Position numbers and translations under genes: made by a program. This document shows, piece after piece, positions 32,506 to 64,000 of a DNA stretch of 64,000 nucleotides (positions are counted from its first letter, which is position 1; each line of letters begins with the position of its first letter). The notes beneath the pieces were generated by a model, which searched no databases, was not told the origin of the DNA, and saw only the letters and a list, made by a program, of their open reading frames with translations. The stretch is from the NCBI GenBank assembly GCA_947497175.1, contig CANMFM010000006.1, forward strand, positions 124,001 through 188,000. Direction: 5' to 3'. The stretch is from an uncultured Aquimarina sp. Its GTDB lineage: Bacteria; Bacteroidota; Bacteroidia; Flavobacteriales; Flavobacteriaceae.

Positions 32506-32519
32506 CGTAAACGTTTGCG
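32506..32519. promoter_or_regulatory. LacI-type operator-like site upstream of susC
   Basis: CGTAAACGTTTGCG is a near-perfect palindrome centred on AAAC/GTTT, one mismatch pair (T/G). It resembles the CG-centred operators bound by LacI/GalR-family regulators, one of which is encoded at 53485-54519. The same core occurs at 11126-11135 far from the PUL, so the motif alone is weak evidence. Confidence 0.5.
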
Positions 32520-32734
32520 AAAAAAAGAATGTGCTCCTTTTTTTATTTTTTAATTAACTGAAAATCAATTATTTAAATTATGATTATTGAGTGAAATGTT
32601 TTGTTGAAAATTTAGCTTTCGGCTGTCTTTATCTTGTGGTTATATCCTAATTTTTTTGAATGGACCATCATAAAATTTAATTTAGAACTATTAAAATTCG
32701 AAAAACAATCAATTAATAATTTAAAACAGTCAGT

Positions 32735-35700
32735 ATGAAAAATAACTTACTAAAGATTCTTTTTATCGGAATCGTTTTGATGGTAAGTAGGACTTATTCA
32801 CAAAGTATTTCGGGTATAGTTACTGGAGAAGACGGAATTCCGGTTCCAGGTGTAAATGTAATTGTTAAAGGAACGGCAAATGGATCTTCTACAGATTTTG
32901 ATGGTAATTATACGATCAATAGTGTATCTGGAGACGCAGTTTTAGTTTTTAGTTACGTAGGTTTTCAGACTCAGGAAATTTCAGTTTCTGGTCAAACGGT
33001 AATTAACGTTTCTTTACTCACAGATTCTCAATCGTTAGAAGAGGTAGTGATTTTGGGATATGGCCAGGTTCAAAATAAGAAATCGCTAACCACTGCGATC
33101 GCTACGGTAGACCCCGATATCATAAAACGGTTACCAATATCTCAGGCAGAAGCTGCACTACAGGGAACAGTACCAGGAGTTGTCGTACAACAAAACTCTG
33201 GATCTCCAGGATCTCCACAAACCGTTAGAGTAAGAGGTATAGGAACACCAAATAATTCAGATCCTCTATATATAGTTGATGGGGTTCAGGTACCTAACTT
33301 AACATTTTTAAATCCTAACGATATACAATCTCAAACAGTGCTTAAAGATGCTGCATCCAGTGCTATTTATGGTTCTAGAGGGGGTAATGGTGTAGTTTTA
33401 ATAGAAACATTAAGTGGTAAAAGAAGAATTTCAAAACCTGAAATCTCAATTCGTGGTTATTACGGTATCCAAAGTTTGGCAAACAAACCAGATCTAATGA
33501 CTCGAGACGAGTATGTTCAATATTATAACCAAGGAGTTGCAGCAGCTGGGGCAAATCTGGCAGAAGGATTTAGAGAAGCGTTTACAGATGCAGAACGACA
33601 AGCACTACCTGATACAGATTGGTATGATGTACTGTTTAACGACGCACCTACTCAAGATATTTATGGCTCAATAGTAGGAGGAGGCGAGAGAGTGTCTTAT
33701 GCAGTCTCAGGTGGTTATTTTGGGCAAGAAGGTATACTTGGAGGGGATAATAAGGCAGAGTTTAACAGAAGAAACATTAGAGGAGCATTTGATGGGGATA
33801 TTACAGACCGTATTGGATTTAATGTGGTTGCACAGTATCAGAACCAAGAACGGTTTAATGTATCTCAAAATAATGGAGGAGCAGGAGTAGGTATAAGTAG
33901 TTTTATAAACGCGCTGCCTCCAATTTATCCTGCATTTGATGAGCAAGGTAATTTTTTCAATCCAGGTTTACAACGAAGTAGTCCAACCGTAAATGGAGTG
34001 CCATTAAATAGCCTTGGTGCTGTACAAAATCCATTATTTTCTCTTGCATTACTAGATTCGCAAACTGATCAGGATATCCTTAATCTTTCAACTTCTTTAG
34101 ATTGGAAACCAGTAGATAATTTAAAGTTTAAAGTAAGTTATGGAGTGTTTAGTGCTTCTATTTTTAATAGGTCTTTTTTGCCATTAATCGATCAAGAAGC
34201 TCAGGAGTATGATACGGCTAATAATGTATTTTATCAAGAGGTATTAAATAAAACCAGAAACAGACAATATGGGGTTACAGGAGAGTATTCCTTCGCTAAG
34301 CTGGCACAAAAATATCATTATTTGAGTATACTTGCTGGTTACGAGGTTGTTGAAAACAGATTTGATGGTGGAGCTATAGTAAGAGATCCAGGCCTTTTCT
34401 TAGTTAATGATTTTGATAGTGTTAATTTTGCATTATCAGAAGATAATACCGACGCTGTAATAACGCCCGGAATCTCTTCAGATGTGGGATTACGATCTTT
34501 TTTTGGTAAAATAGATTATGCGTACAAAGAGAAATATGTATTAAGTGCAGTAGTAAGAAATGATAGTTCTTCTAATTTTGGATCTAACAATCGTTCTGGT
34601 TGGTTTCCAGCCGTATCTGCAGGTTGGGTAATCTCTGAAGAGCAATTTTTACAAGATAGCAATACTATAAATTTACTAAAAATCAGAGGTAGTTGGGGGA
34701 TTAGTGGTAATGATGGATCACCCAGGCCATTAGCTTATCTGTCTTCAGTAAATACTCAGGTTAGTTATGCAGGTCAACCAGGAATAGTACTGACAGGATT
34801 ATCTAATCCGGATTTAAAATGGGAAGAAATTTCTCAGTTAAATATAGGTTTAGATATGAATGTGTTTAATAATAAACTTGGATTCACTGCTGATTACTAT
34901 ATAAAAGAAACCAGCGATATATTATTACAGGCAACTACACCATTGACTTCTGGATTACAACCTTCTGTTGAAAATACAGGGGATATAGAAAACAGGGGAT
35001 TCGAGTTTATAGTGTCTTGGAGAGATACGTATGCTAGTGGATTTTCTTGGAACATCAATGTAAACCTTGGATTTAATGAAAATGAAGTAACAAGTCTTGG
35101 AGAGACTTCTTTCATAGATGCAGCCGCAATACAACCACAATTTCAAGGATTTGCATCAAGAACCAGAGTTGGAGATCCTATTGCCAGTTTCTTTGGGTTT
35201 GTTGTCGAAGGTAGAGATGCAGCAGGTAATCTGGTCTTTGCAGATTTAGATAATAGCGGTAATAATAAATTAACACCAGATGCCGGAGATAGAACGATTA
35301 TAGGAAATCCTAATCCCGATTTCACATATGGTATGAATTTAGGCTTTGGTTATAAAGGATTTGATTTTTCTGCATTTATGTCAGGAACGGCTGGCAATGA
35401 TATTTTTGATGCTACAAATCGATATGATGCTGTAGGTTCAAATAGACCTTCATCCTATATTACTGAAGCAAACACTCCACGAAACATTGCGGCTACTACA
35501 CTAACCAACGGAGAGCAACTTATATCAGATTTTCATGTAAAAGATGGCTCTTTTGTAAAGCTAAAAAATGTAACTCTTGGGTATACCATCCCAGATGCCG
35601 CAGCAAAATCAATAGGAGCAGAGGCCGTGAGAGTTTATGTTTCTGGACAAAATTTATTTATCCTAACCGAATATGATGGCTTAGACCCAGAAATTGGGCA

Positions 35701-35794
35701 AAATAATTTAGGTAGCCCACTAAATATAGGAATTGATCAAGGGTTCTTCCCACAATCACGTAACTTTTTATTAGGCTTTAATTTTAATTTTTAA
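32735..35794 (+). CDS. SusC/RagA-family TonB-linked outer-membrane transporter
   Basis: 1019 residues. Signal peptide to about residue 22 (TYSQS), a CarboxypepD_reg-like domain at about 24-100 (ISGIVTGEDGIPVPGVNV), a plug with QALQ-type features (SQAEAALQGTVPGVVVQQ, VRVRGIGTPNNSDPLYIVDG, LKDAASSAIYGSRGGNGVVL) and a long beta-barrel ending in FLLGFNFNF. It should pull oligosaccharides delivered by the SusD partner through the outer membrane with TonB energy. susD starts 5 bp later. No STN domain, so control is unlikely to be through FecR. The substrate is inferred from neighbours to be an algal xylan. Confidence 0.96.
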   Translation: MKNNLLKILFIGIVLMVSRTYSQSISGIVTGEDGIPVPGVNVIVKGTANGSSTDFDGNYTINSVSGDAVLVFSYVGFQTQEISVSGQTVINVSLLTDSQSLEEVVILGYGQVQNKKSLTTAIATVDPDIIKRLPISQAEAALQGTVPGVVVQQNSGSPGSPQTVRVRGIGTPNNSDPLYIVDGVQVPNLTFLNPNDIQSQTVLKDAASSAIYGSRGGNGVVLIETLSGKRRISKPEISIRGYYGIQSLANKPDLMTRDEYVQYYNQGVAAAGANLAEGFREAFTDAERQALPDTDWYDVLFNDAPTQDIYGSIVGGGERVSYAVSGGYFGQEGILGGDNKAEFNRRNIRGAFDGDITDRIGFNVVAQYQNQERFNVSQNNGGAGVGISSFINALPPIYPAFDEQGNFFNPGLQRSSPTVNGVPLNSLGAVQNPLFSLALLDSQTDQDILNLSTSLDWKPVDNLKFKVSYGVFSASIFNRSFLPLIDQEAQEYDTANNVFYQEVLNKTRNRQYGVTGEYSFAKLAQKYHYLSILAGYEVVENRFDGGAIVRDPGLFLVNDFDSVNFALSEDNTDAVITPGISSDVGLRSFFGKIDYAYKEKYVLSAVVRNDSSSNFGSNNRSGWFPAVSAGWVISEEQFLQDSNTINLLKIRGSWGISGNDGSPRPLAYLSSVNTQVSYAGQPGIVLTGLSNPDLKWEEISQLNIGLDMNVFNNKLGFTADYYIKETSDILLQATTPLTSGLQPSVENTGDIENRGFEFIVSWRDTYASGFSWNINVNLGFNENEVTSLGETSFIDAAAIQPQFQGFASRTRVGDPIASFFGFVVEGRDAAGNLVFADLDNSGNNKLTPDAGDRTIIGNPNPDFTYGMNLGFGYKGFDFSAFMSGTAGNDIFDATNRYDAVGSNRPSSYITEANTPRNIAATTLTNGEQLISDFHVKDGSFVKLKNVTLGYTIPDAAAKSIGAEAVRVYVSGQNLFILTEYDGLDPEIGQNNLGSPLNIGIDQGFFPQSRNFLLGFNFNF

Positions 35795-35799
35795 GAACA

Positions 35800-37377
35800 A
35801 TGAAAACATTTAATAATACTATATTAAAAATGAGAACAAAACGATTTTTTCTATTGTTTTTTGGCGGGATAATGTTCATGCCTTCTTGTTCTGATGATTT
35901 GTTAGATAAAGTTCCCATTACAGAGCTCGTTGCAGATACGGCATTTACTACAGAAGATGATATAGTAGCCAGTCTTAGTGCTGCATATGATGCATTGCAA
36001 TGGCATAATGTTGGAGGAAACCAAACATTTCCCTTAATGCAACAAGGTGTAAGAGCAGATGATTTGCATTCACAATCAGCCGCATTTTGGTCCATAGGTG
36101 CACAGTATGATCAGTTTAGTACTATAACACCTACTTTGGCTTCGGTAGCTTCTGTATGGAGCAAGTGGTATCAAGGGGTAGCACGAGCCAATTTTACAAT
36201 TCAATTAGCAGAAGAATTTACTAATTTTGAAACTCTAGAATTGCAAGAGCAAATTATAGCAGAAGCAAGGTTTTTAAGAGGATTTTATTATTTTGAATTA
36301 GTACGCCTTTTTGGTGGTGTTCCGCTTTTTGATGAACCCATAACTTCAGCAACTCAAGAACAGTTTAAGCCTAGGTCTTCTACAACAGACGTATATGCAT
36401 TTATAGAAGCTGATTTAGAAAATGCTGCTATGATACTACCATTAAAAGGTGGCGAAAGAATACAAGGTTCTGCCACCTCAGGAGCAGCATATGCATTGCT
36501 TGCTAAAGTATTCTTATATCAAGAAAAGTGGGCAGAAGCTGTTAACGCGGCAGAACAAGTGATTAATCAAGGAGTATATGGTCTAGAATCAAACTTTTCA
36601 AGCAACTTCGTTCAAACTAATGAGTTTGGCTTAGAGTCTGTTTTTGAAATCAATTATGTAGATGGTTTATCCGCGGGTGATTTTAATGATGGTTCACAAT
36701 CTCAAGAAGGCTCGGGAATGTGGAAATGGAGTTTCCCTTTCTTAGAAGCGTACAACTCATTTAATAATTTTATTCCAAGACAAGAATTGGTTGACTTTTT
36801 TGATGAGAGTGATCAAAGGAAAGCGGCTACATTTTTGCTGCCCGGGCAAAATACAAACTCTCCAGGATTGGCAGCCCTGGGGTGGGATCCTGTTCCCGAT
36901 GATTTTGGATATGCAATAGGAGTAAATACAGGCGTAAGAAAGTACTTTTTAACTTTTGAAGAAGTACAGAATTTACTTACAGATTTTCAATCACCTTTAA
37001 ACGAGAAAGTAATCAGGTATGCGGATGTATTATTAATACATGCAGAAGCATCTTTAATGGGAGGAGGCGGAAACGGCTCAAATTCCTTTAATCAGGTGGT
37101 AGAAAGAGCATATGGAACAACATCTAGTCCTGCACCTGCATATTCTAAACAAGGAGTAAGAGATGAAAGGCGAAGAGAACTTGCGACAGAAGGATGGAAT
37201 CGTTTTACTGATTTAGTGCGCTGGGAAAAAGTTGATGGAGGCGGAGTCATCCAAGATGCATTAAATGCTATTGGTAAGTCTGATTTTAGAATACCAAGAG
37301 ATCTGTTGTTGCCAATTCCTCAACAAGAAATAGATACCTATCCTGAAGGAATGCTGGCACAAAACCCAGGTTATTAA
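35800..37377 (+). CDS. SusD/RagB-family surface glycan-binding lipoprotein
   Basis: 525 residues. Lipobox FMPSC (Cys30 from the first ATG; a second ATG at 35830 would give a shorter, more usual signal, and I cannot decide between them). RagB/SusD helical TPR scaffold: AEARFLRGFYYFELVRLFGGVPLF and ERRRELATEGWNRFTDLVRW are highly characteristic. It caps the SusC barrel and binds incoming glycan at the cell surface. Sits directly after susC (5-bp gap). Glycan specificity cannot be read from sequence. Confidence 0.96.
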   Translation: MKTFNNTILKMRTKRFFLLFFGGIMFMPSCSDDLLDKVPITELVADTAFTTEDDIVASLSAAYDALQWHNVGGNQTFPLMQQGVRADDLHSQSAAFWSIGAQYDQFSTITPTLASVASVWSKWYQGVARANFTIQLAEEFTNFETLELQEQIIAEARFLRGFYYFELVRLFGGVPLFDEPITSATQEQFKPRSSTTDVYAFIEADLENAAMILPLKGGERIQGSATSGAAYALLAKVFLYQEKWAEAVNAAEQVINQGVYGLESNFSSNFVQTNEFGLESVFEINYVDGLSAGDFNDGSQSQEGSGMWKWSFPFLEAYNSFNNFIPRQELVDFFDESDQRKAATFLLPGQNTNSPGLAALGWDPVPDDFGYAIGVNTGVRKYFLTFEEVQNLLTDFQSPLNEKVIRYADVLLIHAEASLMGGGGNGSNSFNQVVERAYGTTSSPAPAYSKQGVRDERRRELATEGWNRFTDLVRWEKVDGGGVIQDALNAIGKSDFRIPRDLLLPIPQQEIDTYPEGMLAQNPGY

Positions 37378-37395
37378 TAATTTTAAGCATAGAAA

Positions 37396-38274
37396 ATGAA
37401 ACATATAAGCAATATAAAATCATTTAGAAAAGCGGGAATACTTGTAATGATGATAAGTCTTTTCGTGGTTGTCCTGTCTTGTACTGAAGATACAGACTTT
37501 AATCTGGGACCCGTTTTACCATCGAGTTCTGATGGAATCCAAAACCTTGATGAAGAAGGAATAGACTGTGGAGGAACAAATGCACCAAATCCTTGTCCAA
37601 GTTGTACCGATGGGATACAAAATCAAGATGAAGAAGATGTTGATTGTGGCGGTCCATGTACCAATGAATGTCCTGAACTTACCCCTAGAGCACAAGCTTT
37701 ACTGTCCCAAGGGTTACCAAGATTTTTTACATTTGAAGCGGGAGATTTATCTTCTGGATTAAATTTAAGACCAAGAACCACTAATGCAGATGGCAGTCCA
37801 TATGGACAAGGGGTCATACCAACATTTGGCGTTGCAGATCCTGCAGGTAGTGATGACCTGGTAACACAGATAGTCAGACCAGAAAATGGACCTTTTGGGG
37901 GCTTTGAAGACTTAAAGTTTCAGCCTCAGGATGCTGTAATCGATTTTTCAGAATATAATAAGTTCAAAATAGATGTATTTATCCCTTCTACAAATGACTT
38001 TTCAGGAGCTTTAACACCCATGGTAGAATTGATATTACATGATGATGACCCCGAGTTCTTTACGCGTTGGACTGTGATTTCTCAATCCGTAGCCGACACA
38101 GATTTTGATAGCTGGGTTACTTTAGAGTTTGATGGATCTAGTGCAGTAGCAGCAGGGTCTGGGACTTTATTACCAGATAATACTACCTATACCATCTTTA
38201 CTCTACGTTTAGGAGGTAGTGGTCATGGAGAATCAGGAGTATTCTTTGTTAAGGATTTTGTACCTTTTAAATAA
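37396..38274 (+). CDS. Surface lipoprotein with two Cys-rich linkers and a beta-sandwich domain (candidate glycan-binding protein)
   Basis: 292 residues in the position where PULs place a SusE-like protein, 19 bp after susD. Lipobox VLSC (Cys29). Two copies of a Cys-rich motif (SSDGIQNLDEEGIDCGG... and CTDGIQNQDEEDVDCGGPC) occupy residues about 44-93. The remaining 190 residues look like a jelly-roll carbohydrate-binding module (RFFTFEAGDLSSGLNL, DFSEYNKFKIDVFIPST, SWVTLEFDG, YTIFTLRLGGSG). I do not recognise a named family. A surface glycan-binding role is inferred from position and lipidation. Confidence 0.72.
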   Translation: MKHISNIKSFRKAGILVMMISLFVVVLSCTEDTDFNLGPVLPSSSDGIQNLDEEGIDCGGTNAPNPCPSCTDGIQNQDEEDVDCGGPCTNECPELTPRAQALLSQGLPRFFTFEAGDLSSGLNLRPRTTNADGSPYGQGVIPTFGVADPAGSDDLVTQIVRPENGPFGGFEDLKFQPQDAVIDFSEYNKFKIDVFIPSTNDFSGALTPMVELILHDDDPEFFTRWTVISQSVADTDFDSWVTLEFDGSSAVAAGSGTLLPDNTTYTIFTLRLGGSGHGESGVFFVKDFVPFK

Positions 38275-38328
38275 AAAAATAACTAAAAAAGAGAAGAACT
38301 TTTTCTCCCTTAAGGTAATGCAATTATA

Positions 38329-39309
38329 ATGATAAAAGAAAAAACATACATATACGTATCCATTATTTTAGGAATGCTGTTAACAACGTTATCTTGCTCG
38401 TCTGGTGATGATGAGAATTCTGCAGTACCAAATCCGGTAGCCACTGTTACGTGTACCGATGGAGTTCAAAATGGTAGTGAAACTGGTATAGATTGCGGTG
38501 GGAGTAGTTGTAGCAAATGCCCAACCGGAGTTGTTATTCCGACCACAGGATTTGATGCACCTTCATCATACGACGGATTTGATTTGGTGTGGGGTGATGA
38601 ATTTAATGATAACAAATTGTCTCTTCAAAACTGGTCTTTTAATATAGGAGATGGTTGTCCTAATCTATGTGGATGGGGTAATGAAGAACTACAATCTTAC
38701 ACAAATAGCAGTGATAATTTGTTTTTTGAAGAAGGTAATTTGGTTATAGCAGCCAGACATGAAGGAGGATCTAATTATTCTTCATCTAGAATTAATTCGG
38801 ATAATAAATTTGAGTTTCAATATGGTAGAGTGGATATAAGGGCGAGTATGCCTTCTACCACAGGGTCCTGGGTAGCTTTATGGCTTTTAAACCATAATTA
38901 TACTATCAATAACCCTGGAGAATGGTGGCCAAGTGGTGGCGAAATAGATATTATGGAATATCTGGGAGAAGATCCAGCCGAGGTTTTTGGTACGGCACAC
39001 TACGGAAGTGATTTTAATAGTCGAAGATTTAACTCTAAAGAATATCCAGCCCCAGAAGAAAATTATAACAACATATATTATGTGTTTTCTATTCTTTGGG
39101 AAGAAAATAAAATTACTTGGCTAGTAAATGATATAGAATATCATTCTATTACGCCTTCTCAAACTAATGGACAACCATACCCTTTTAATGATGAGTTTTA
39201 TCTAATCATGAATCTTTCTGTAGGAGGTAATTTACCTGTTCAGCCTATTGCAACAGAGTACCCCGCATTTTTAATAATAGATTACATAAGGGTACACCAG
39301 AAAAAATAA
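38329..39309 (+). CDS. GH16 family glycoside hydrolase, lipoprotein
   Basis: 326 residues. Lipobox TLSC (Cys23), a Cys-rich linker (residues 42-64, CTDGVQNGSETGIDCGG), then a GH16 jelly-roll from about 80 to the end. The active site is GGEIDIMEYLG: Glu205 nucleophile, Asp207, Glu210 acid/base. GWGNEELQSYT and the MPSTTGSWVALWLL strand are typical of the laminarinase-like branch (beta-1,3-glucanases). It may cut beta-1,3-glucan mixed into the target wall; activity on another beta-linked polymer is possible. Last gene of the susCD block; a 232-bp gap follows. Confidence 0.93.
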   Translation: MIKEKTYIYVSIILGMLLTTLSCSSGDDENSAVPNPVATVTCTDGVQNGSETGIDCGGSSCSKCPTGVVIPTTGFDAPSSYDGFDLVWGDEFNDNKLSLQNWSFNIGDGCPNLCGWGNEELQSYTNSSDNLFFEEGNLVIAARHEGGSNYSSSRINSDNKFEFQYGRVDIRASMPSTTGSWVALWLLNHNYTINNPGEWWPSGGEIDIMEYLGEDPAEVFGTAHYGSDFNSRRFNSKEYPAPEENYNNIYYVFSILWEENKITWLVNDIEYHSITPSQTNGQPYPFNDEFYLIMNLSVGGNLPVQPIATEYPAFLIIDYIRVHQKK

Positions 39310-39357
39310 AAATACCCCAAATTATATTTGAATAACAAGCTAGTTTTTGATTGATTA

Positions 39358-39402
39358 AGAAAGGGAGTTCTTTCTCTTGTTCTCAAGAAATGACCCCTTT
39401 CT
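39358..39402 (+). terminator. Possible hairpin after the GH16 gene
   Basis: Arms AGAAAGGG / CCCTTTCT around a 29-nt loop, 48 bp after the stop. No T-run follows, so termination is uncertain; it may only process or stabilise the transcript. Confidence 0.35.
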
Positions 39403-39446
39403 AATCGTATTCACGAGCTTAATAAAGAAATTGTTTTAACAAATTA

Positions 39447-39471
39447 CGAAAACTATACACACTGGTTTTCG
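39447..39471. promoter_or_regulatory. Inverted repeat upstream of xylulokinase gene
   Basis: CGAAAAC (39447-39453) and GTTTTCG (39465-39471) are perfect inverse complements 11 nt apart, about 70 bp before the xylB ATG. This is the only gap (232 bp) inside the PUL before the catabolic genes, so it is a reasonable operator or second promoter for them. Confidence 0.4.
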
Positions 39472-39541
39472 ATAATTCTTTAGATAGAAGTTTTGTTTCT
39501 GTACAATAAGTCGAACTTTTATCATCAGCAAAAATTGCATA

Positions 39542-41029
39542 ATGTATTATATAGGATTTGACATAGGAAGTTCTTCAATAAAGGCAGCTTTGGTTCATGC
39601 CCGAACTGGTAAATCTATTGCATCAGTAAATGAACCCGAAGAAGAAATGGATATTATCTCTATCCATAAAGAATGGGCAGAACAAAACCCCGAACATTGG
39701 TGGCACAATGTCTGTAAAACTTCTAAACGTATACTCAAAGAAAATGCAATTCGTCCTGATCAGATTAAAGGCATAGGAATCTCATACCAAATGCATGGTT
39801 TAGTATTGTTAGATAATAAAGGTGAATTAATTCGAAACTCTATTATCTGGTGCGATAGTAGAGCAGTAGAAATAGGAAGCAAAGCATTTAATGAAGTGGG
39901 AGAAAGCAAATGTATGAGGGCTTTATTGAATTCACCAGCTAATTTTACAGCATCAAAGCTGAAATGGGTACGGGATAATGAGCCCGAAAACTATAAAAGA
40001 ATTTATAAATTTTTATTACCGGGAGATTATATCGCATATAAATTTACAGGTGCTGCTAACACTACAAAATCTGGGCTTTCTGAAGGTACACTCTGGGATT
40101 TTAGAAATGAGCAACCTGCAAGTTGGTTATTAGAGTATTATGATATTAATTCAGAACTCATACCCGAAATAGTACCTACATTTTCATATCAAAGCGAGTT
40201 ATCACTACAAGGGGCAGAAGAAAGTGGACTTAAAGAAGGAATACCTATTCTATATAGAGCAGGAGATCAACCCAATAATGCATTATCCCTTAATGTGTTT
40301 AACCCCGGAGAAGTAGCGGCTACTGGTGGTACATCCGGGGTAATCTATGCGATCACAGATAACCTTTCTGCAAAAGAAGGAGTGAAACTCAATAATTTTG
40401 CACATGTTAATCATTCAGAAGAAAAAGCCAGTATTGGAAAACTTCTGTGTATTAACGGAGCCGGAATTCAATACAGATGGTTAAAAAATAACCTTAATCT
40501 TGAAACAAATTCTTACCAAACTATGAATTCTCATGCTTCAAAAGTACCGGTGGGATCTAATAACTTACAACTCATTCCTTTTGGAAATGGTGCAGAGCGA
40601 ATGTTTGATAACCAGACTATTGGAACACATATTTGTAACCTTAATCTCAATAAACATACACGCTCACATATTTTTAGAGCAGCTTTAGAAGGAATTGCAT
40701 TTTCTTTTGTCTACGGAATGGAGATTCTAAAAAAAGATAATACAGAAATAAAAGTAATTCGAGCTGGGAACGATAATCTCTTTCGCTCAGAAATTTTTTC
40801 GAACACAGTGGCAACGCTAATTAATCAAGAAATAGAAATTTATAATACAACTGGTGCCATTGGAGCAGCTCGGGCGGCTGGTCTAAGTGATGGTACATTT
40901 AAAGATTTAGGTACCATGATTACCAAAAATGATCATGTGATGACATATCACCCGCTACAGAATCAAGATGATTATATACAAGCATATAAAAATTGGAAAA
41001 AAGAATTAAATAGAATTATAGAAAAATAA
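39542..41029 (+). CDS. xylB: Xylulokinase
   Basis: 495-residue FGGY-family sugar kinase that phosphorylates D-xylulose to xylulose 5-phosphate. Phosphate-binding start [16 protein letters not shown], substrate-loop region [19 protein letters not shown] and catalytic Asp in [11 protein letters not shown]; the second domain has [10 protein letters not shown] and [12 protein letters not shown]. Length and motifs fit XylB rather than glycerol or gluconate kinase, and xylA follows 7 bp later. Cytosolic. It heads the eleven-gene run to 53082, all plus strand with gaps of 0 to 26 bp. Confidence 0.94.
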
Positions 41030-41036
41030 AGTACAG

Positions 41037-42362: not shown

Positions 42363-42369
42363 AATTCAT

Positions 42370-43986: not shown

Positions 43987-43997
43987 AACTAGCAGAA

Positions 43998-44654: not shown

Positions 44655-44680
44655 TATCATTAATTATAAATGGAAACGAT

Positions 44681-46720: not shown

Positions 46721-46728
46721 ATCGATTA

Positions 46729-47721: not shown

Positions 47722-47736
47722 TTTTAGAAAATAATT

Positions 47737-49275: not shown

Positions 49276-49276
49276 T

Positions 49277-50875: not shown

Positions 50876-50881
50876 AAAGGG

Positions 50882-52033: not shown

Positions 52034-52044
52034 AAAATTTTCAA

Positions 52045-55712: not shown

Positions 55713-55785
55713 TTCTTACAATTTTAATGTTTACTTACAAGATTTAGTTGATCCATAAAGCTGTATTACAAAAAACTTTATGTTG

Positions 55786-55963: not shown

Positions 55964-57394
55964 ATGAGGTTAGTGTCAAGTTGTATAGTTTCGGTATGGG
56001 CTTTTGTCATAGCATTGGGTTGTAACTCTGAAACACATCAAAAAAAGAAGCCAATTGCGCAATCTACAGATAAGTATGTAAGTACAGGTGGAAAAATGAA
56101 TGAAAAACTGTTATGCCCAAATACAGTAAATGATGTTATTGTTAATTTGAATAGTTTAAACCCTCCTGCAAAGCCGGGAGAGCCTACAATGACAATCAAT
56201 GGCGTCCTAGAATTTATTCAGAAGAATAATATCAAAACGATTGCCGCTTTATTAAATCAACTACCAGTGCAGTATCGAAATAATTTTTCTCTGGTAGAAG
56301 AAACTAAAGGTGAAGGACAATCTAATTTACGATTTCCAAGAATTGTATTATTTGGTCCTGATGGTAGATTCTTAATGAACATTAGTACCAAACCGGATGA
56401 TCCAAAATATGATTTGTTAGATTGTGCAGAGCTTAACGAAGAAACTGGCATGTGGGAGTTTTCTCAATTTGATTTTACAGAAGAACGTCCAAAACTTCAT
56501 TCACGTCCTGAATCCTGTATTCGATGCCACGGAGATACGCCAAGACCAGTGTGGGGGACTAATATGGATTGGCCGGGAGTTTTTGGTGATAATGAAGCTG
56601 CAGGTCCTAATGGCGAAGCGTTGTCGTATAAACACGTATTAAGAATGAGAGAAATTATTGAGGGAAAGACATACTCTGATCGATTTGATTTTCTAAAATG
56701 GTCAGACCAGAAGTTACGTTCTGGAGGTATTCGACGTATAGCAGATCATGTTTTTGGAGCAGAGTTGTTGGTTTCTAATATGGCTATTGGTACTGCAACA
56801 GCCAGGGGAGTATTTAAACGAATGAAAAAAGAAAATCCAAAGACGTATAAGCAAACTAGAGAAGCATTACTATTATTAGGTTATGAATATATGATTCATG
56901 GTATTTTAAGTGATAATGAAAAAGTAGGTTTGGAAAAAATGATAGAAAACCTTGGAGGATCTGGTAATACTATAGATGATTTATTATTGGTATTAGGAAT
57001 TGACACCAAAGAAGCATTTTCATTAAGTACTTTGGCAAAAGAAGAACCACCAAAGACAGATTGGAGCCTTGGTGCCGGTGATTTATATGAACAGGTACTG
57101 CTTCAGGTTTTGCATGATTTAGCAATAGATGATCATGACCTGAATACCTTGTTAATTTCTGTTCCTAATACTCCCGGGGTTTTTGGATGTAAGGATTTAG
57201 GGAAAAATATAAAAGAGGTGGTTGATTTTAAAATGCTGCATATGCATCAATTATTGGGGAGTTCCAGATATGAAGTCAATAAGGTATACTACTCACAAGA
57301 TGCAGAAAATATAAAAGCGAAGGTTTTTATTCCTGCTTATGAAAAAATAGCACCATATTTAAAAAAGAAAATAAGAATAGATAACGTATTGTAA
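55964..57394 (+). CDS. Lipoprotein with a single CxxCH (haem c) motif, function unknown
   Basis: 476 residues. Lipobox ALGC (Cys20). The motif SCIRCHGD gives a CxxCH at residues 185-189, the covalent haem c attachment site, followed by RPVWGTNMDWPGVFGDNE. The rest is mostly helical with no second CxxCH and no di-haem peroxidase pattern that I can see. Family unknown to me. It would be a periplasmic or surface redox lipoprotein if haem is attached. Convergent with the big GH26 gene, with a terminator between. Confidence 0.72.
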   Translation: MRLVSSCIVSVWAFVIALGCNSETHQKKKPIAQSTDKYVSTGGKMNEKLLCPNTVNDVIVNLNSLNPPAKPGEPTMTINGVLEFIQKNNIKTIAALLNQLPVQYRNNFSLVEETKGEGQSNLRFPRIVLFGPDGRFLMNISTKPDDPKYDLLDCAELNEETGMWEFSQFDFTEERPKLHSRPESCIRCHGDTPRPVWGTNMDWPGVFGDNEAAGPNGEALSYKHVLRMREIIEGKTYSDRFDFLKWSDQKLRSGGIRRIADHVFGAELLVSNMAIGTATARGVFKRMKKENPKTYKQTREALLLLGYEYMIHGILSDNEKVGLEKMIENLGGSGNTIDDLLLVLGIDTKEAFSLSTLAKEEPPKTDWSLGAGDLYEQVLLQVLHDLAIDDHDLNTLLISVPNTPGVFGCKDLGKNIKEVVDFKMLHMHQLLGSSRYEVNKVYYSQDAENIKAKVFIPAYEKIAPYLKKKIRIDNVL

Positions 57395-57419
57395 ACGTAT
57401 TGCAATTTGATCAGAAATA

Positions 57420-57455: not shown

Positions 57456-57505
57456 AAGTAATTAGTACCACAAAAAGACTATCCCCCCTTGCAAATTGAG
57501 CATGA

Positions 57506-60500
57506 TTAATCTAGTATTAAGGGCATAGTGGTTATAGATTTGTTGGTGTTGAGAATCGTAATTAAATACATTCCTTTTTCTACCGTACTTAAATTAACTT
57601 TTACTTTTGGTTCTGATGGTTTTGAGCGTATGGTCTTAATGAGCCTACCATTTAAATCACTAATTAATATTTTCGAGATATTTTTACTGTGTACAACAAA
57701 TACTCCTTTAGTCGGATTGGGAAATAGTAATGGTTTAGCTTCAGTTTTTTTACCTAATTGACGATTTGATGATAATTGTGATTGTAATAATTGATTGTTA
57801 AGATCGCTACTGCCGTGTAACCATATGGGTTTTTCTATTTCAGTTTTCCAGTTATTAGCAATAGTTGAGTGTACATGAACCCCGGCACGACCCCAATATC
57901 CATTAGCTCTGTTTCCTTGGCCAAATAATGCAGTATCATCTTCCCAATTAGCATTGATATAATGTACATGTCGTATGATATCACTATTAGTATATATATA
58001 TTCAAAGAAAGGAGTAAACCATTCACCCCAAACCTCATTTGCAGATTGGTTTACACAACCTTGAGCAGCAGTGCCATCCCATACATTAGAAATGTTGCAA
58101 TCTCTTAGATTGATCAAATCATACCCCTGTGGGGTAGACTCTGCGATATATACGGGCTTATTTTTACTTCTTGCAAAGGTAAGAACCTCGTTGGCTTTTT
58201 CTCTTTGAGTAGGAATTCTTGGTAAGACGGTCGTGGTTTCATCTGGAGTTACAAACCATGACAATCCCATCCAATCTACATAATCGTCACCTGGATACCA
58301 ACTTTCAATATTTCCAAAATTACCTTCTCCAAATTGTATATCAAGAACATCATCAATAGGAGAGGAGCTAGATTGCCAAACATAAGCTACATTAGCAACA
58401 CCTTCTGCACGCATGATATCAACTACGCGTTTGTAAGCAGCGATATAATTAGCTCTGTTTTCATAGCCTACATTCCAATTTCCATCAAATTCATATCCAA
58501 TTCTTAAATAGATTGCCCGATCACCGTATCTTTTGCAAAATGAGGCTAACCTTTTAATTTGATTATCCCATTGCCCTTGTCCAACTTGGGCCAGACATCC
58601 CTGACACCAATAATTAATTCCGTTTAGGGTAGCTTCGCCTTCGGTCATGCTTAATCCGATAGATACACTTGAATTCGGATAGGCCAAAATAGAACTCCTG
58701 GCATTTAGAGGGCCTGCTCCCCAATCTACATCAATAGTAGAGCCATTACCGTTAGTGGCTAATGCTCCATTAATAGTTTCTCCGAGTGCTCCATATTGGG
58801 GAAATTGAGAATCCAGTAGACTATAAAATGAAATATAAGTAGTAGTTCCTCCCATTGCAGGAAACCCTTTTCCCTGAACTCCACCATCATTATAATCTTT
58901 TATGGTTTTAAGATCTTGTCCTATGGTAAGTAAGATCTTATCGTTTGGAGGTAACAATTTTGCATTAAGAGTACTTGCGCTACAGGGTTGACAACTTCCT
59001 CCACAATCGACTCCTGTTTCATCTCCATTTTGGATACCATCATTACAAGTAGGAACACCTCCATTTTCATAAATTCTAACATTCCGAAAATAACTGGTAT
59101 TGCCTGATCCATTATCAAAATCATTTACCAGTACAAGATACATGTCAGTTTCTGTATAATAAGCTCCTACCGGAATACTAAATGAAGTATACCCGTTTGA
59201 CGTATAATCGAAATCACGATTTCCCCAGTTTTGGGTTCCGTATACTTGAAAAATCTGTGAAGAAGTTAACGATTCGTTGCTATCAAAACCTATCCCATGT
59301 ATTTCGCCTTGCGAGTTGCTTTGAAATTCAAATTCTAAAACAGTATTTGGTGTAATTGTATATCTAGTATTGGTTCTTCTCCAGGTATTATCTGTAAGCA
59401 CTGCTGTGGCACCATTATCCTGAATAGTAATAGTAGCAGCACTATCTTGATTAGAAAAAGAAGAAGTGCCTGTTTGATTAAAATTGATACAATCATTGCA
59501 ACCACCGCTGCTATTTGTATTAATGATTAATTCTCCAAGAGTTTGCGCACATTCATTGTTGCCCCATCTTGTATACAGTGTATATGACCCTGGAGATACA
59601 TTGGATATTGTAGTAGATCCGCTATTGTCCAGAACGTTATATGGATAGGTTATACCGCCGTCTATGCTAAACTCTATGTTTGTTCTTCCGGGGGTATCAG
59701 AGAAACTAAAAGTAATACTACCATCATTTGCGCCTTGAGAAGTCTCGTCTGTTTTATTTACTACAGCATTTGGGATATCTGCGCCAGTACAAGGTTCATT
59801 GCCGTCTCCGCTATTTTCGTTTATAAAGTTGAGGTAATCTACATTTAGAGCACTATCGCCGGTATTGTTTATTACTTGAAAAGAATCTCCTGTAGAAACC
59901 GTTGTATCAAAAGTAACCTTGGAATACGACCCTACCCAAGCGCCGTTAGAAGTAAAATTAAGATCGCCCTTATCTTGACCATTAATGAATACCGATATTT
60001 TTCCGGAGTTTTGTGAAGCATAAACAAACTCTACCTTGTTTGCTTTAGGAGCATTACTAATGGTAAAACTATTGCCAGGATCGTCAAGGTATGCAACTCC
60101 CTGTCCATTACTCGCTGCACCATCATTATAGTATTGAGATTGTCCAGAAAGAATACTGGTTTCAGCTTCTATCTTGGTAGTTGTGCTTCCTCCTGCGGGA
60201 TTACAAGGAGCACAGCTGCCACCACAATCTATGCCTGTTTCATTTCCATTTTGGATGCCATCACTACATGTAGGCTCTGGTCCGGTTGTTATACCGAGAT
60301 CACTTAATAGATTTGGGCCACCATGCAAAAAATTACCATTATTGATATAAGTATTCCAATTGTTAGCTATGGTATTGTTTGTTTCGATTCTGGTATCTCC
60401 CCAAAAACCATTATTGGCATCGGGCCATTTCCATTGTGGTTGTGATTGCCAATCGGCATTGATATAGGCAACCGCTCGTATCACATCTCTATTATTATCT

Positions 60501-61393
60501 ACAAAAGGGATTAATTGATCCTTGAAGAATTGATTCCAAATACCTTGACCTCCTAATTGTTGCGGTGATCCTGGATTGTCAAATGGATGAAACGTTCCTT
60601 GATCAAATTCATGATATTGCGCGGATACTTCGGCCATCATAATGGGCTTATTTTTGCTTCTTGCAAAGCTTAAAATATAATCCAGATTATCACCATTAAA
60701 GTTTTGATCAAAAAAGAAAAATGATAAGCCTACATAATCTACATACTTATCACCGGGATAATAACTATCAATACCATTTGGAGGGGTTTCTCCCCAGGTT
60801 GCAGATTGCCATACATAAGCTACGTTAGTTACCTGTCTTTGATTTAGGTAGTTTACGATATAACGATATGCAGCTTGATATTTATTTGGATTATAATTAT
60901 TCCAGGGGCCATCAAACTCGTATCCAATTCTTAAATAAATGGGCCTGGGTGCGTTTCTATTTGCAAATGCAGCAAATTTATCCAGTTCATCATTATGTTG
61001 GCCATTAACGATTTCGGTTAATCCATTAGGGTGATCTTCTCCCTGACCGTCTGCCTCTTCAACCATCCACAGACCAATGATCAATGCAGAATTAGGATAT
61101 CGATCTAATGCTGCTTGTGAGCCAATATCACCTGCGCCATAATTTGTAATATTATTTAATCCACCCATAGTATATATATCGGTATACATGGTGACTCCAG
61201 CTGGAATAGGAAATCGCCCGCTATTAACATAACCCGAAACAGATCCCAGATCCTGACCAAGTATGAGCATGGTTTTCCCGTTAATAGGGGCAAATTTTCC
61301 TGGTATCGTATTTTGTGGAAATAATGTAAAGCATCCTATTAAAAATGCACAGCACCATAAAAGTACATCTGTTGTTTTTTTAGTAATTAACAT
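57506..61393 (-). CDS. T9SS-exported bimodular GH26 enzyme, probable beta-1,3-xylanase
   Basis: 1295 residues. Order: signal peptide (1-26); GH26 barrel A (about 38-360; MLILGQDLGSVSGYVNSG, YLRIGYEFDGPWNNY with Glu159, MMAEVSAQ with Glu255); Cys-rich linker (376-397); CBM6/35-like module (about 405-525, TKIEAETSILSG ... LNVDYLNF); SprB-like beta repeat (535-625); a second beta-sandwich module (632-778, HGIGFDSNESLTSS, QVYGTQNWG) of unassigned family, CBM31 being one candidate; second Cys-rich linker (783-804); GH26 barrel B (about 812-1200, Glu968 in GYEFDGNW, Glu1085 in YIAEST); T9SS type-A sorting domain (about 1222-1295, LLFPNPTKGVFVV, KGMYLITI). Both barrels keep the two catalytic Glu. 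Secreted or surface-attached attack on the polymer is inferred. Confidence 0.9.
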   Translation of the reverse strand: MLITKKTTDVLLWCCAFLIGCFTLFPQNTIPGKFAPINGKTMLILGQDLGSVSGYVNSGRFPIPAGVTMYTDIYTMGGLNNITNYGAGDIGSQAALDRYPNSALIIGLWMVEEADGQGEDHPNGLTEIVNGQHNDELDKFAAFANRNAPRPIYLRIGYEFDGPWNNYNPNKYQAAYRYIVNYLNQRQVTNVAYVWQSATWGETPPNGIDSYYPGDKYVDYVGLSFFFFDQNFNGDNLDYILSFARSKNKPIMMAEVSAQYHEFDQGTFHPFDNPGSPQQLGGQGIWNQFFKDQLIPFVDNNRDVIRAVAYINADWQSQPQWKWPDANNGFWGDTRIETNNTIANNWNTYINNGNFLHGGPNLLSDLGITTGPEPTCSDGIQNGNETGIDCGGSCAPCNPAGGSTTTKIEAETSILSGQSQYYNDGAASNGQGVAYLDDPGNSFTISNAPKANKVEFVYASQNSGKISVFINGQDKGDLNFTSNGAWVGSYSKVTFDTTVSTGDSFQVINNTGDSALNVDYLNFINENSGDGNEPCTGADIPNAVVNKTDETSQGANDGSITFSFSDTPGRTNIEFSIDGGITYPYNVLDNSGSTTISNVSPGSYTLYTRWGNNECAQTLGELIINTNSSGGCNDCINFNQTGTSSFSNQDSAATITIQDNGATAVLTDNTWRRTNTRYTITPNTVLEFEFQSNSQGEIHGIGFDSNESLTSSQIFQVYGTQNWGNRDFDYTSNGYTSFSIPVGAYYTETDMYLVLVNDFDNGSGNTSYFRNVRIYENGGVPTCNDGIQNGDETGVDCGGSCQPCSASTLNAKLLPPNDKILLTIGQDLKTIKDYNDGGVQGKGFPAMGGTTTYISFYSLLDSQFPQYGALGETINGALATNGNGSTIDVDWGAGPLNARSSILAYPNSSVSIGLSMTEGEATLNGINYWCQGCLAQVGQGQWDNQIKRLASFCKRYGDRAIYLRIGYEFDGNWNVGYENRANYIAAYKRVVDIMRAEGVANVAYVWQSSSSPIDDVLDIQFGEGNFGNIESWYPGDDYVDWMGLSWFVTPDETTTVLPRIPTQREKANEVLTFARSKNKPVYIAESTPQGYDLINLRDCNISNVWDGTAAQGCVNQSANEVWGEWFTPFFEYIYTNSDIIRHVHYINANWEDDTALFGQGNRANGYWGRAGVHVHSTIANNWKTEIEKPIWLHGSSDLNNQLLQSQLSSNRQLGKKTEAKPLLFPNPTKGVFVVHSKNISKILISDLNGRLIKTIRSKPSEPKVKVNLSTVEKGMYLITILNTNKSITTMPLILD

Positions 61394-61456
61394 GATTAGT
61401 GAGTTTAGATTGGCAATCGAATAGATAATTGCGGTATATTTTATTAATTAACTAAA

Positions 61457-61487
61457 ATTATTACATATTTTATAAAGATGTAATAAT
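61457..61487. promoter_or_regulatory. Inverted repeat upstream of the GH26 gene
   Basis: ATTATTACAT (61457-61466) and ATGTAATAAT (61478-61487) are perfect inverse complements 11 nt apart, 64-94 bp before the GH26 start. Spacing fits a dimeric regulator site over or near the promoter; the neighbouring LuxR-type regulator is the obvious candidate. Confidence 0.5.
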
Positions 61488-61579
61488 GCGTGTACGGCGA
61501 AAATACGAGAAGACTACAGTTTTACTACTCAAATTACATGTTGGGGGATGTTACCCTATTGGTTGATAAAATAAGTTGC

Positions 61580-64000
61580 TTAGAATCGAATGATATAGTC
61601 AGTAAGATTAACAGAGGTATCAAGATTCATTTTTTTCCTTACTCTGAAACGCAATGACTCAACACCCCGATATGAAATTCCCATTAAGGGTGCAATTTCT
61701 TTACTGGATAGGTTTAATTTTAAATAAGCACATAGTCTTATTTCTCGATGGCTTAACTCTGGATATTTTTCTTTTAATCGTTCTAACGAGTTGTCATGAA
61801 TTTGATTAAAGTGCGTTTCAAAATGTTTCCAGTTGTTATCACCTTTTATTTGATCTTCCAGTAATTTTATAGCGTACCTCAGTTGTTTCCTAATTCTTCC
61901 ATCAGACTGATTATAAATCTCATCTAAAGATTTTTTTAATTGTAATAACTGATTATCTATTTGTACAGTTTGCATAGCGGATGATGCAAGCTCTTTATTT
62001 CTGGATTCGAGATTTTCTTTAAGAAATTTATTGTCTTTCTTTATTTTTTCATTTTTGGCCTTTAATCGTTTTTCTTCAAATTTTATTTTCTGAATTTCAA
62101 TCTCTCTCTTATGTGCAATTTTTAATTTTTCCACACTTTTTTTACGTTGCTCATTTTTGATCCGGATAAACGCATATAAGCCAAGAAGCAATAAGGCTCC
62201 ATAAACAATAAACATAGGTATTGATCTATACCACGGAGGATTAATTTTAAATTTGAAAGAAGTTTCGTTTCCAATTTTATGATACACATTTTTTGCTCTT
62301 ACCCTAAATGTATATTCGCCCGCAGGTAAAAAATTATATTCTTTTTGTGTTTCGGTACTCCAATCAGACCACTCTTCATCAAGTCCTTCGAGATAGGTTT
62401 GGTACATGATCAAATTTGGATGCTCATACAGCGGGGCGACGAACGAAAAACTTAATTTATTGAGCCTAAAAGGTATGGCTTTAGTAATTGAATCTTTTCG
62501 GATACCAGTTACATAATTTTCAACATTACCATAAATCATTGAATCTTTCACAGAAACATTTCTTAATAATGTATTGAAATCTTTATTGTAGTTTAGGTTC
62601 ACATCTTCACGGTAGATGATCAATCCATTTTTAGAAGTGAACCCTATGTCCTTATTGTCAAAAACTATAAACTCTTCGAAGGCGGGAACAAGTTGTGTTT
62701 TTAATCGTTGAAACGGAACACGTTCTAGCGTATGATTTCCGTTTGAAGAAAAATTTATAATCCCAATATCATCTTCTCTATCATATCCCTGAATAAAAAG
62801 TACCCTGTTCTCTGATATGTTGGTTAAGTTGCGCACCAAGTTATGATTGGTTAATATGCTTGTATATTTACTATCAACAAGCATGGAGTCTGTTTTTTTA
62901 TCATAATGATAAACCCCAAGTTGAGTGCCGAATAATTGTTCATCATTGGTGTCGAGCAAACTGATAAATAAATTTCCAGGAAATCCTTTTTTTTGATCAT
63001 AAAGGGTGAGATCGACCACTTTGGTTATATCAGAATTTAACTGTAGATGGTAGACACCTTTATATCCATGCGATATCCAAATTGAATTTGAGGTATCAAA
63101 AATGACTTCCCTGGAAGTTTTATCAAACCCCTGGATCTTATGTTTTATTTTCCACGAACCATTACTCTTTTGATATACATATAGACCTTTATATGTTCCT
63201 TGAAGTATAAGATCTTTTTTACCTGGAACTTTTATAAAGTTCCATCCACCATTAATATTACTTATAGGGATTGCCTTATTATTTTGAAGAATAAAAGATC
63301 CATCGTGCGCTCCTATAAATAATTGTTGTTCAATTACGGATAAGTTCCAGATTTGCCCATTTACTCCAGGAATTTTCTCAAATACATCATCATGATTAGT
63401 TAGGGGCCATTTACTAGAATACAAACCATTAGATGTAGCAACATATAAGGTGTCATTGTATTTTTCTACATCGTAGGTTGTGCCAAAAATTCCATCATTT
63501 TCTGATAAGGTATAAAAAGGTGATTTTAACTCAACATAGCTAATACTTCCTTCTAGAGTGATCCATAAGTTTTTAGATTCATCTAGATATAAATCTAATA
63601 CTGTATTGCTTAGAAGTTTATTATCTCTATTTAGGTTCTGTAAGAGATTACCTTGTTTATCAAGAAATAAGACTCCGTTATTAGTGGTGCCAATACAATA
63701 TATATTTTCTTCAATACAGATACTGGAGGTGATATTAATTGTTGAAGAGTCAAAATGTTCTGGATTTCCCCAAGGTTTCATTTCGTTATTCTCAAATAAG
63801 TAAATACCCTTTTTAGCCGTGAAAATTAATAGTGAACTGCTGTCATAAGGCAATATTTTTTCAATGGTATATTTAGAGAATAATGAAGCAGGATACATTG
63901 GTTGGATTAGGTCATCATTGAGCGTATATATCGTATTTAAATAATCTACAAAATAGAGTTTACCATTACTCTTTGTGACATATTTGATTCCATTAATTTT
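61580..64000 (-). CDS. Propeller/Y_Y_Y transmembrane LuxR-type regulator (partial, N-terminus beyond window)
   Basis: 806 residues are visible; the frame stays open to the window edge, so the start is missing (an internal ATG at 63898 is not the true start). The first 570 residues are two-component-regulator-type propeller repeats (TNNGVLFLDKQGN, ATSNGLYSSKWP). A Y_Y_Y domain follows (YQTYLEGLDEEWSDWSTETQ, FLPAGEYTFRVRAKN), one transmembrane helix (IPMFIVYGALLLLGLYAFI), a long coiled coil rich in Lys/Glu, and a C-terminal LuxR HTH (YPELSHREIRLCAYLKLNLS, SKEIAPLMGISYRGVESL). No histidine-kinase or receiver domain is present, so it must signal directly from periplasm to DNA. Likely senses an oligosaccharide of the PUL. 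Confidence 0.9.
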   Translation of the reverse strand, partial: KINGIKYVTKSNGKLYFVDYLNTIYTLNDDLIQPMYPASLFSKYTIEKILPYDSSSLLIFTAKKGIYLFENNEMKPWGNPEHFDSSTINITSSICIEENIYCIGTTNNGVLFLDKQGNLLQNLNRDNKLLSNTVLDLYLDESKNLWITLEGSISYVELKSPFYTLSENDGIFGTTYDVEKYNDTLYVATSNGLYSSKWPLTNHDDVFEKIPGVNGQIWNLSVIEQQLFIGAHDGSFILQNNKAIPISNINGGWNFIKVPGKKDLILQGTYKGLYVYQKSNGSWKIKHKIQGFDKTSREVIFDTSNSIWISHGYKGVYHLQLNSDITKVVDLTLYDQKKGFPGNLFISLLDTNDEQLFGTQLGVYHYDKKTDSMLVDSKYTSILTNHNLVRNLTNISENRVLFIQGYDREDDIGIINFSSNGNHTLERVPFQRLKTQLVPAFEEFIVFDNKDIGFTSKNGLIIYREDVNLNYNKDFNTLLRNVSVKDSMIYGNVENYVTGIRKDSITKAIPFRLNKLSFSFVAPLYEHPNLIMYQTYLEGLDEEWSDWSTETQKEYNFLPAGEYTFRVRAKNVYHKIGNETSFKFKINPPWYRSIPMFIVYGALLLLGLYAFIRIKNEQRKKSVEKLKIAHKREIEIQKIKFEEKRLKAKNEKIKKDNKFLKENLESRNKELASSAMQTVQIDNQLLQLKKSLDEIYNQSDGRIRKQLRYAIKLLEDQIKGDNNWKHFETHFNQIHDNSLERLKEKYPELSHREIRLCAYLKLNLSSKEIAPLMGISYRGVESLRFRVRKKMNLDTSVNLTDYIIRF

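Follow-up and report, generated by a model that had tools for sequence, protein, structure and literature searches.

Introduction

Siphonous green algae have beta-1,3-xylan as one of the major polymers of their walls, and the stretch of DNA analysed here (the window: 64,000 nucleotides, C6:124001-188000 of a genome of 4.59 Mb in 21 contigs) very probably contains, in an Aquimarina-like marine flavobacterium, a polysaccharide utilization locus (PUL) for the Caulerpa type of this polymer. A complete beta-1,3-xylan pathway was published in 2025 for Vibrio, in a report whose text gives 47 strains with loci, 38 of them counted in Bacteroidota (PMC12125979), and the opinion of an earlier note on this DNA, that such loci are little studied, is dated since then. 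The predicted locus belongs to the type catalogued there: the features by which the text of that report marks a beta-1,3-xylan locus are found in the window, namely glycoside hydrolase family 26 (GH26) proteins of the beta-1,3-xylanase group, a GH43 without a signal peptide (as judged by eye), xylA, xylB (with a model score below the cut-off) and susC/susD. The window would represent a full flavobacterial version of the pathway, with a candidate operator; among named organisms, it is Aquimarina that has the nearest relatives of its GH26 and oxygenase proteins.

Beta-1,3-xylan is the best-supported target, firstly, because the GH26 domains have the beta-1,3-xylanase XYL4 as their top match, conserve both catalytic Glu, fall in clades with beta-1,3-xylanases and are not to be grouped, according to tree tests, with the mixed-linkage xylanase (MLXase) AlXyn26A; secondly, because the genes present are those of the published set (GH26, GH43 or GH3, XylA, XylB, SusC/D); and finally, because the five best SusD matches sit in five full GH26 loci, in which a palindrome recurs. 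Gene content, catalytic residues, phylogeny, the recurrent palindrome and the recurrent co-location were obtained by computation, and from them we infer activities, substrates, direction and induction. In what follows, G with three digits denotes a compared genome (G000 being that of the window) and L with three digits a fetched genomic stretch.

The GH26 enzymes

Two GH26 genes of the genome lie above the Pfam cut-off and together encode three barrels: a lipoprotein, predicted to be a beta-1,3-xylanase (50882-52033, plus strand, lipobox recognised by eye), and, on the minus strand, a protein secreted by the type IX secretion system (T9SS; 57506-61393, Pfam GH26 and Por_Secre_tail) that bears two barrels (about 60269-61393 and 57809-58906) as well as linker domains. 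Pfam detects a single GH26 stretch in the latter; the second barrel is real, as residues 807-1208 match the beta-1,3-xylanase of PDB 2ddx (E 3e-35). The double-barrelled T9SS enzyme, the lipoprotein GH26 and the YEFDG..W acid/base motif in all three domains, which the earlier note had described, are thereby borne out, and in the alignment the nucleophile Glu is kept in all three as well.

In the PDB search the first place is always taken by XYL4 (E 7e-40 for the lipoprotein, 5e-53 for the whole T9SS protein, within barrel 1, and the value given above for barrel 2), followed by the mixed-linkage xylanase AlXyn26A, with lichenases and mannanases far lower; the bit scores for XYL4 and AlXyn26A are 149/88, 181/101 and 153/86 for the respective domains. 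Chains labelled as mannanase reach at best E 0.0057 and 0.024, with none among the matches of barrel 2 up to E 1, and two chains labelled merely "GH family 26" stand at 0.0011 and 0.01. A mannanase identity is ruled out by these scores, set against 5e-53 to 3e-35 for XYL4, as the earlier note had anticipated in arguing against mannan; the GH26 trees contained no mannanases.

In a quick tree of 106 rows, the three barrels, XYL4 and the GH26 proteins of Flammeovirga pacifica and Bacteroides cellulosilyticus fall within one group of 84 rows (SH-aLRT 98), and AlXyn26A and a lichenase fragment fall outside it. As 45 of the 103 inner branches of this tree were below 80 and the XYL4 branch was long, a tree of 34 rows was made, in which XYL4 is joined by the two T9SS barrels (97/86) and the lipoprotein by the GH26 pair from the locus of B. 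cellulosilyticus DSM 14838 (L035; 100/100). To the members of this pair the lipoprotein shows 48% and 43% identity; they are presumed to be the two tested enzymes of DSM 14838, which are beta-1,3-xylanases according to the text of PMC12125979; Xyl88 of F. pacifica is likewise described as a characterised beta-1,3-xylanase in the text available of PMC7563424.

The earlier note had proposed, next to beta-1,3-xylan, a mixed-linkage beta-1,3/1,4-xylan (MLX) of red algae as the target, and it is true that MLXases share the GH family and that the solved relatives of the GH43 are beta-1,4-xylosidases. However, approximately unbiased (AU) tests on the 34 rows, which were picked by hand and whose groups were named after the 106-row tree had been seen, reject the grouping of each domain's clade with AlXyn26A (p 9.3e-8, 3.2e-6 and 2.3e-11), which rules out an identity of the AlXyn26A type for the GH26 domains, and the XYL4 bit scores exceed those of AlXyn26A in every domain. 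A locus for MLX is thus very improbable, and of that proposal the beta-1,3-xylan half stands, on the XYL4 matches and the trees.

Three fragments from the linkers of the T9SS protein, compared with Pfam at E up to 10, gave no family above its cut-off, whether CBM31 or another named carbohydrate-binding module (CBM). Separately, five stretches (L125, L126, L127, L128 and L129) hold a solitary GH26 gene whose identity to the lipoprotein of the window is 46-50%, with no homologues of other locus genes around it.

Recurrence of the locus and its putative operator

The comparison covered 79 GH26 loci, fetched with flanks of up to 10 kb from the best 80 of at least 209 relatives; 249 Flavobacteriaceae genomes drawn evenly, G000 included (E at most 1e-40 for the oxygenase and 1e-20 for GH26); and 296 Bacteroidota genomes drawn more widely, again with G000. 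Four other full loci (G211, G086, G096 and G120) share SusC, SusD, XylA, the major facilitator superfamily (MFS) porter, GH43, GH26, the oxygenase, the Gfo/Idh/MocA oxidoreductase and LacI with the window; XylB and the sodium:solute symporter (SSS) are found in three of the four, and the GH16 and binding lipoprotein are limited to G211 and G120. Three genomes with a close GH26 (G217, G026 and G102) have the MFS porter and GH26, with GH43 in two, and neither the oxygenase nor any other gene of the locus.

The uptake pair consists of a SusC-type TonB-dependent transporter (32735-35794, plus strand; Pfam CarbopepD_reg_2 and Plug) and a SusD-type surface glycan-binding lipoprotein (35800-37377, plus strand; Pfam SusD). 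Across the 249 Flavobacteriaceae the best SusD matches, at 100, 74, 71, 46 and 43% identity, come from the five full GH26 loci; the match after these is at 38%, the others among the matches listed do not exceed 39%, and 158 genomes have some match. A SusD 29-33% identical stands beside a GH16 in 9 of 20 other GH158-bearing stretches, with no GH26 or XylA match there, which suggests, at the level of sequence, that the xylan SusD importer split from laminarin-type importers.

A palindrome of 20 bp with the form of a LacI site (32503-32522), with a consensus near TTACGnAAaCGnTTnCGnAA, lies upstream of susC, at -232 to -252 of its open reading frame (ORF) in all five full loci. It occurs once in the window, where 0.03 chance matches would be expected with up to two mismatches, and its 19-base core, with zero mismatches, is present in 4 of 138 fetched loci, these being the other four full loci; most of the remainder hold no susC upstream region. 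The pattern was derived from the five sites themselves, so that only its recurrence at one position counts as evidence. The scan, which was confined to palindromes having CG at the centre, also picked up others, of unrelated sequence, in three further regions (win_CysLP_up, G086_upXylB and G102_upMFS). In G000 as a whole, the susC site alone stands out, because the pattern with one mismatch is found at four places, that site and three more, as against one for a reversed-pattern control. The adjacent LacI-family regulator (53485-54519, minus strand; Pfam LacI and Peripla_BP), with homologues in the other four full loci, is the candidate reader of this putative operator. One of these three further copies lies on contig C2 (L141), between another LacI-family gene (1705-2733) and a SusC-type gene, possibly a paralogous regulon.

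Enzymes of glucan families

The window encodes two enzymes of families known for glucans. The GH16 lipoprotein (38329-39309, plus strand; Pfam GH16) is of laminarinase type, with the motif GEIDIMEYLGE and matches to ULam111 (E 6e-49) and the laminarinase 3azx (E 1e-47). The GH158 (45383-46720, plus strand, exported as judged by eye) matches the solved GH158 structures 9oro (E 2e-70) and 6pal, and its motifs GNE and TEFGP, whose Glu residues we take to be the catalytic pair of the family, align with them. In a tree of 29 rows, the window GH158 forms, with those of two other Aquimarina, one Tenacibaculum and two Flammeovirga, a clade of 100/100 with a stem of 0.88, apart from the GH158 group of laminarin type. 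The enzyme may be considered a candidate endo-beta-1,3-glucanase. GH158 occurs in 33 of the 249 Flavobacteriaceae genomes, and only the window copy lies at a GH26 locus.

Both enzymes have a plausible job at a xylan locus, because Caulerpa xylan can hold in-chain glucose: its content ranges from undetectable to about 10% depending on the species, and XYL4 releases Glc-Xyl-Xyl (both according to the accessible text of PMC13351767). Hence a stronger proposal, that the locus is directed at a true beta-1,3-glucoxylan, in which the GH16 and the special GH158 clade would cut at or next to the glucose residues built into the chain, and the GH26 enzymes between the xyloses. The separate clade of GH158 from xylan loci of Flavobacteriaceae and Flammeovirgaceae speaks in its favor, as do the GH16 in two of the four other full loci and a gammaproteobacterial GH26 locus (L072) that also has GH16 and GH158. 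On the other hand, GH158 is found in just 6 of the 79 GH26 loci and GH16 in 4, the GH158 of L072 lies outside the clade and falls with the other type (92/93), and the clade is evidence of shared descent and not of specificity. Taken together, a glucoxylan target is a serious possibility that we place somewhat below an even chance.

A third protein with a possible link to glucans is a candidate surface glycan-binding lipoprotein (37396-38274, plus strand), in which no Pfam family is recognised and whose relatives in the family alignment often have a tandem domain where the window copy has one. Its predicted model, weak overall (mean pLDDT 76.1) and mostly above 85 in the domain, is a CBM-like beta-sandwich whose best Foldseek match is the laminarin-binding CBM 8qx6 (E 3e-6), with a Z score tied with that of an unrelated protein. 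SusD and this lipoprotein may derive from beta-1,3-glucan systems.

Another reading is a composite locus, in which the chassis of a laminarin PUL (SusC/D, the CBM lipoprotein, GH16, GH158 and MFS) would still serve laminarin and a beta-1,3-xylan module would have been inserted into it. The laminarin-binding CBM as top structural match fits this, and so do the 9 of 20 flavobacterial GH158 stretches mentioned above, where SusD, GH16 and GH158 stand together, mostly with an MFS porter, and GH26 or XylA matches in none. Nevertheless, the SusD proteins of full loci are at least 43% identical and the other matches listed at most 39%, the window GH158 belongs to a separate clade, the gene run has no GH3 or GH1, and G086 and G096 retain the core without GH16 and GH158, all of which makes a laminarin PUL with an insertion unlikely.

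The oxygenase and its possible partner

Within the run lies a gene for an Fe(II)/2-oxoglutarate (2OG) dioxygenase of the PhyH family (44681-45382, plus strand, cytoplasmic as judged by eye; Pfam PhyH). The invariant columns of 35 sequences and the predicted model reveal an HxD...H triad, a candidate 2OG-binding Arg and a dioxygenase fold, where we assume that the HxD and His residues form the metal triad and the Arg binds 2OG. Its homologues lie near GH26 in 17 of the 79 loci, in four phyla (among them Flavobacteriaceae, Flammeovirga, Saprospiraceae, Balneolota, Chitinophagaceae, Cyclobacteriaceae, Acidobacteriota, and Alpha- and Gammaproteobacteria), and 14 of these 17 also have a match to the Gfo/Idh/MocA oxidoreductase (46729-47721, plus strand; identified by Pfam, nearest PDB entry the dihydrodiol dehydrogenase 2o48, E 1e-49, with sugar oxidoreductases lower in the list), one of them partial. 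As evidence, the pairing counts for less than the oxygenase does, because the oxidoreductase family is large and common, its matches are 31-84% identical and they were counted without a background rate.

Among the 249 Flavobacteriaceae, 6 genomes have the oxygenase and 19 have GH26, in 8 cases a close one (at least 69%), and both share one locus in 5 (hypergeometric P 4e-8 when compared with the 8 and 9e-6 when compared with all 19, kinship being ignored). In the wider set of 296 Bacteroidota genomes, 2 have the oxygenase and 5 GH26, with both only in G000. Of the 35 genomes reached via loci (36 of 37 loci submitted, chosen out of the 79), 23 have the oxygenase somewhere in the genome, 16 of these already being known carriers, and 12 do not. 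Furthermore, 25 of 66 oxygenase homologues come from an assembly whose longest contig has exactly the length recorded for one of the listed GH26 homologues, whereas each of 20 shifted controls gave 0 of 66; the 66 are those on contigs of at least 10 kb among 120 listed of 1311, compared with 120 listed GH26 homologues. In the four other full loci the gene directly adjoins GH26; in the window it precedes GH158, at 5.5 kb from GH26.

Neither universality nor exclusivity can be claimed for this association. The former is ruled out by its presence near GH26 in only 17 of 79 loci and its absence from three of the eight genomes with a close GH26 (G217, G026 and G102), and the latter by G056 and G288, whose oxygenases are 60% and 62% identical and whose genomes have no GH26 match at E 1e-20. 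Five neighbors of the oxygenases of G056 and G288 comprise, according to Pfam, one S9-type peptidase, one weak aspartyl-protease match and three proteins without a family. Near oxygenases outside GH26 loci there are similar secreted hypothetical proteins of about 370 amino acids (L118:655-1776 and L135:8600-9715, by eye), a second context of the family.

With these data one could imagine an unreported oxidative side branch in the consumers of beta-1,3-xylan, in which the oxygenase would make a keto-sugar from a modified or non-xylose unit, or strip an O-alkyl group from it, and the Gfo/Idh/MocA protein would reduce the product for entry into xylose metabolism, together with a dedicated GH158 clade that would have moved from beta-1,3-glucan to beta-1,3-glucoxylan. 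This proposal, built on analogy, is rather doubtful in our opinion; if it were true, native algal beta-1,3-xylan would carry a chemical feature not yet described. The words "phytanoyl", "dioxygenase", "oxidoreductase", "GH158" and "glucanase" are absent from the main text of PMC12125979, and in the open-licence PMC literature no report was found that joins a PhyH-type oxygenase to xylan or that combines Caulerpa, xylan and methyl-xylose. The recurrence of the oxygenase and of the GH158 clade at such loci would predict features of the polymer: in-chain glucose, and perhaps an unknown modification.

Gene order, proposed pathway and surroundings

The genes from 32735 to 52033 form a run on one strand with intergenic gaps of 0-54 bp, the sole exception being 232 bp ahead of xylB, and the mutarotase then follows, extending the run to 53082. 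Their order is SusC, SusD, the binding lipoprotein, GH16, XylB, XylA, the SSS transporter, the aldolase, the 2OG oxygenase, GH158, Gfo/Idh/MocA, MFS, GH43, GH26 and the epimerase. Those not yet located, all on the plus strand, are the xylulokinase XylB (39542-41029; Pfam FGGY, TIGR01312 as best model with 300 bits, below its curated cut-off of 380), the xylose isomerase XylA (41037-42362; NCBIfam TIGR02630 with 661 bits over a cut-off of 533, and no Pfam family at E 0.001), the SSS symporter (42370-43986; Pfam SSF), a fructose-6-phosphate aldolase/transaldolase-like protein (43998-44654; TIGR00875 above cut-off), the MFS sugar porter (47737-49275; Pfam Sugar_tr, TIGR00879), the GH43 xylosidase (49277-50875; Pfam GH43 and GH43_C2, PDB 1yrz at E 2e-180) and the aldose 1-epimerase or mutarotase (51952-53082; start uncertain, with the ORF running from a TTG at 51952 and Pfam Aldose_epim covering 52108-53082).

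Most of this had been recognised in the earlier note, whose SusC/SusD pair, GH43 without signal peptide, laminarinase-type GH16 and XylA/XylB set with mutarotase, aldolase and two sugar transporters are confirmed by the family models and PDB matches cited, with the reservation already made for XylB. Its statement that GH10, GH11, GH67 and GH115 are missing agrees with the 20 ORFs scanned with Pfam (32735-63898), none of which belongs to these families. The GH158, the 2OG dioxygenase and the Gfo/Idh/MocA protein had escaped it.

The pathway would begin outside the cell, where the double GH26 exported by the T9SS and the GH26 lipoprotein on the surface would cut the polymer to beta-1,3-xylo-oligosaccharides, with SusD and the CBM-like lipoprotein holding the chain and SusC importing the fragments. 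The GH16 and GH158 would attack stretches that contain glucose or resemble laminarin, either on the cell surface or in the periplasm; the MFS or the SSS porter would carry the oligosaccharides across the inner membrane, and the cytoplasmic GH43 would liberate xylose. The mutarotase, XylA and XylB would then convert xylose to xylulose 5-phosphate, which the aldolase would connect to central metabolism, and the 2OG oxygenase and the Gfo/Idh/MocA protein could remodel a non-standard sugar unit ahead of the xylose route. LacI would repress susC via the 32503-32522 palindrome until a xylose-type inducer is present.

Beyond LacI stands a second block, which may be a separately inherited module, because homologues of its members (the Y_Y_Y regulator, the double GH26, a CxxCH protein and a Cys-rich lipoprotein) accompany one another in L047, L055, L056 and L065, which come from other Aquimarina and from Flammeovirga aprica. 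The Cys-rich lipoprotein (54684-55712, minus strand) repeats the motif CPSSHPY..CG.CW.DANQAQ.GGCN, and the lipoprotein-like protein at 55964-57394 (plus strand) has a CIRCH motif of the CxxCH haem type; homologues of both lie beside the double GH26 in those organisms. The Y_Y_Y/LuxR-type regulator (61580-64000, minus strand; Pfam Y_Y_Y, with GerE below cut-off) extends past the end of the window, to L168:519.

The locus seems to end with this regulator, near 64.5 kb, because an ApbE-like gene, beta-lactamase-like genes and a phage-tail-like injection cluster (all by eye) lie just past the window; the last is of the contractile type (L168:6592-17000), with sheath, tube, LysM and gpV-like proteins. 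At the other side, the ORFs of 1-32260, judged by eye only, include no obvious member of the locus. On contig C1 of the same genome (L166:8591-18999) a GH16-bearing protein adjoins very large cellulase-like proteins (by eye), and because of these the strain may also attack cellulose.

Comparison with known systems

Several points weigh against the assignment to beta-1,3-xylan. The closest solved structures to the GH43 are beta-1,4-xylosidases, and sequence does not fix the linkage; the GH16 and GH158 are of glucan families, and GH158 is absent from the four other full loci, two of which also lack GH16. The 106-row tree has the weak and long branches described above, and the window barrels are 30-34% identical to XYL4 by BLAST, or 34-35% in the multiple alignment, that is, at or below the 35% screening threshold given in the text of PMC12125979. 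Moreover, the loci of that report were judged by its text and legends, and the oxygenase step is a conjecture.

Compared with XYL4 itself (PDB 2ddx and 3vpl), the window enzymes have both catalytic Glu residues, it is their closest solved structure and the tree neighbor of the T9SS barrels; they differ from it in sequence, to the extent just given, and in being lipid-anchored or secreted by the T9SS. The PULs with GH16 and GH158 that we label as laminarin-type, from their gene content, share SusC/D, GH16, GH158 and MFS with the window, whereas the 20 stretches compared lack GH26, GH43 and XylA matches and their GH158 is of another clade. For the oxygenase, the model is KanJ/KanK of kanamycin biosynthesis, where an Fe(II)/2OG oxygenase and an NADPH reductase act on a sugar ring (in the text available of PMC5533434); structures of KanJ rank among those whose fold comes close to the window model, although the identity is 18-20%, in structural alignment only, and the substrate is an aminoglycoside.

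Finally, with the xul locus of Vibrio sp. EA2 and the Bacteroidota loci, as presented in the text and legends of PMC12125979, the window shares the GH26 beta-1,3-xylanases, the cytoplasmic GH43, XylA, XylB and MFS, the SusC/D of the Bacteroidota, and LacI and transaldolase, both named in a figure legend there. It differs from them in that no ABC transporter or GH3 appears among the window ORFs scanned (GH3 genes are found at three other places in the genome), and in that it adds the GH16, the GH158, the 2OG oxygenase, the Gfo/Idh/MocA protein, the CBM-like lipoprotein and the double-GH26 T9SS protein.

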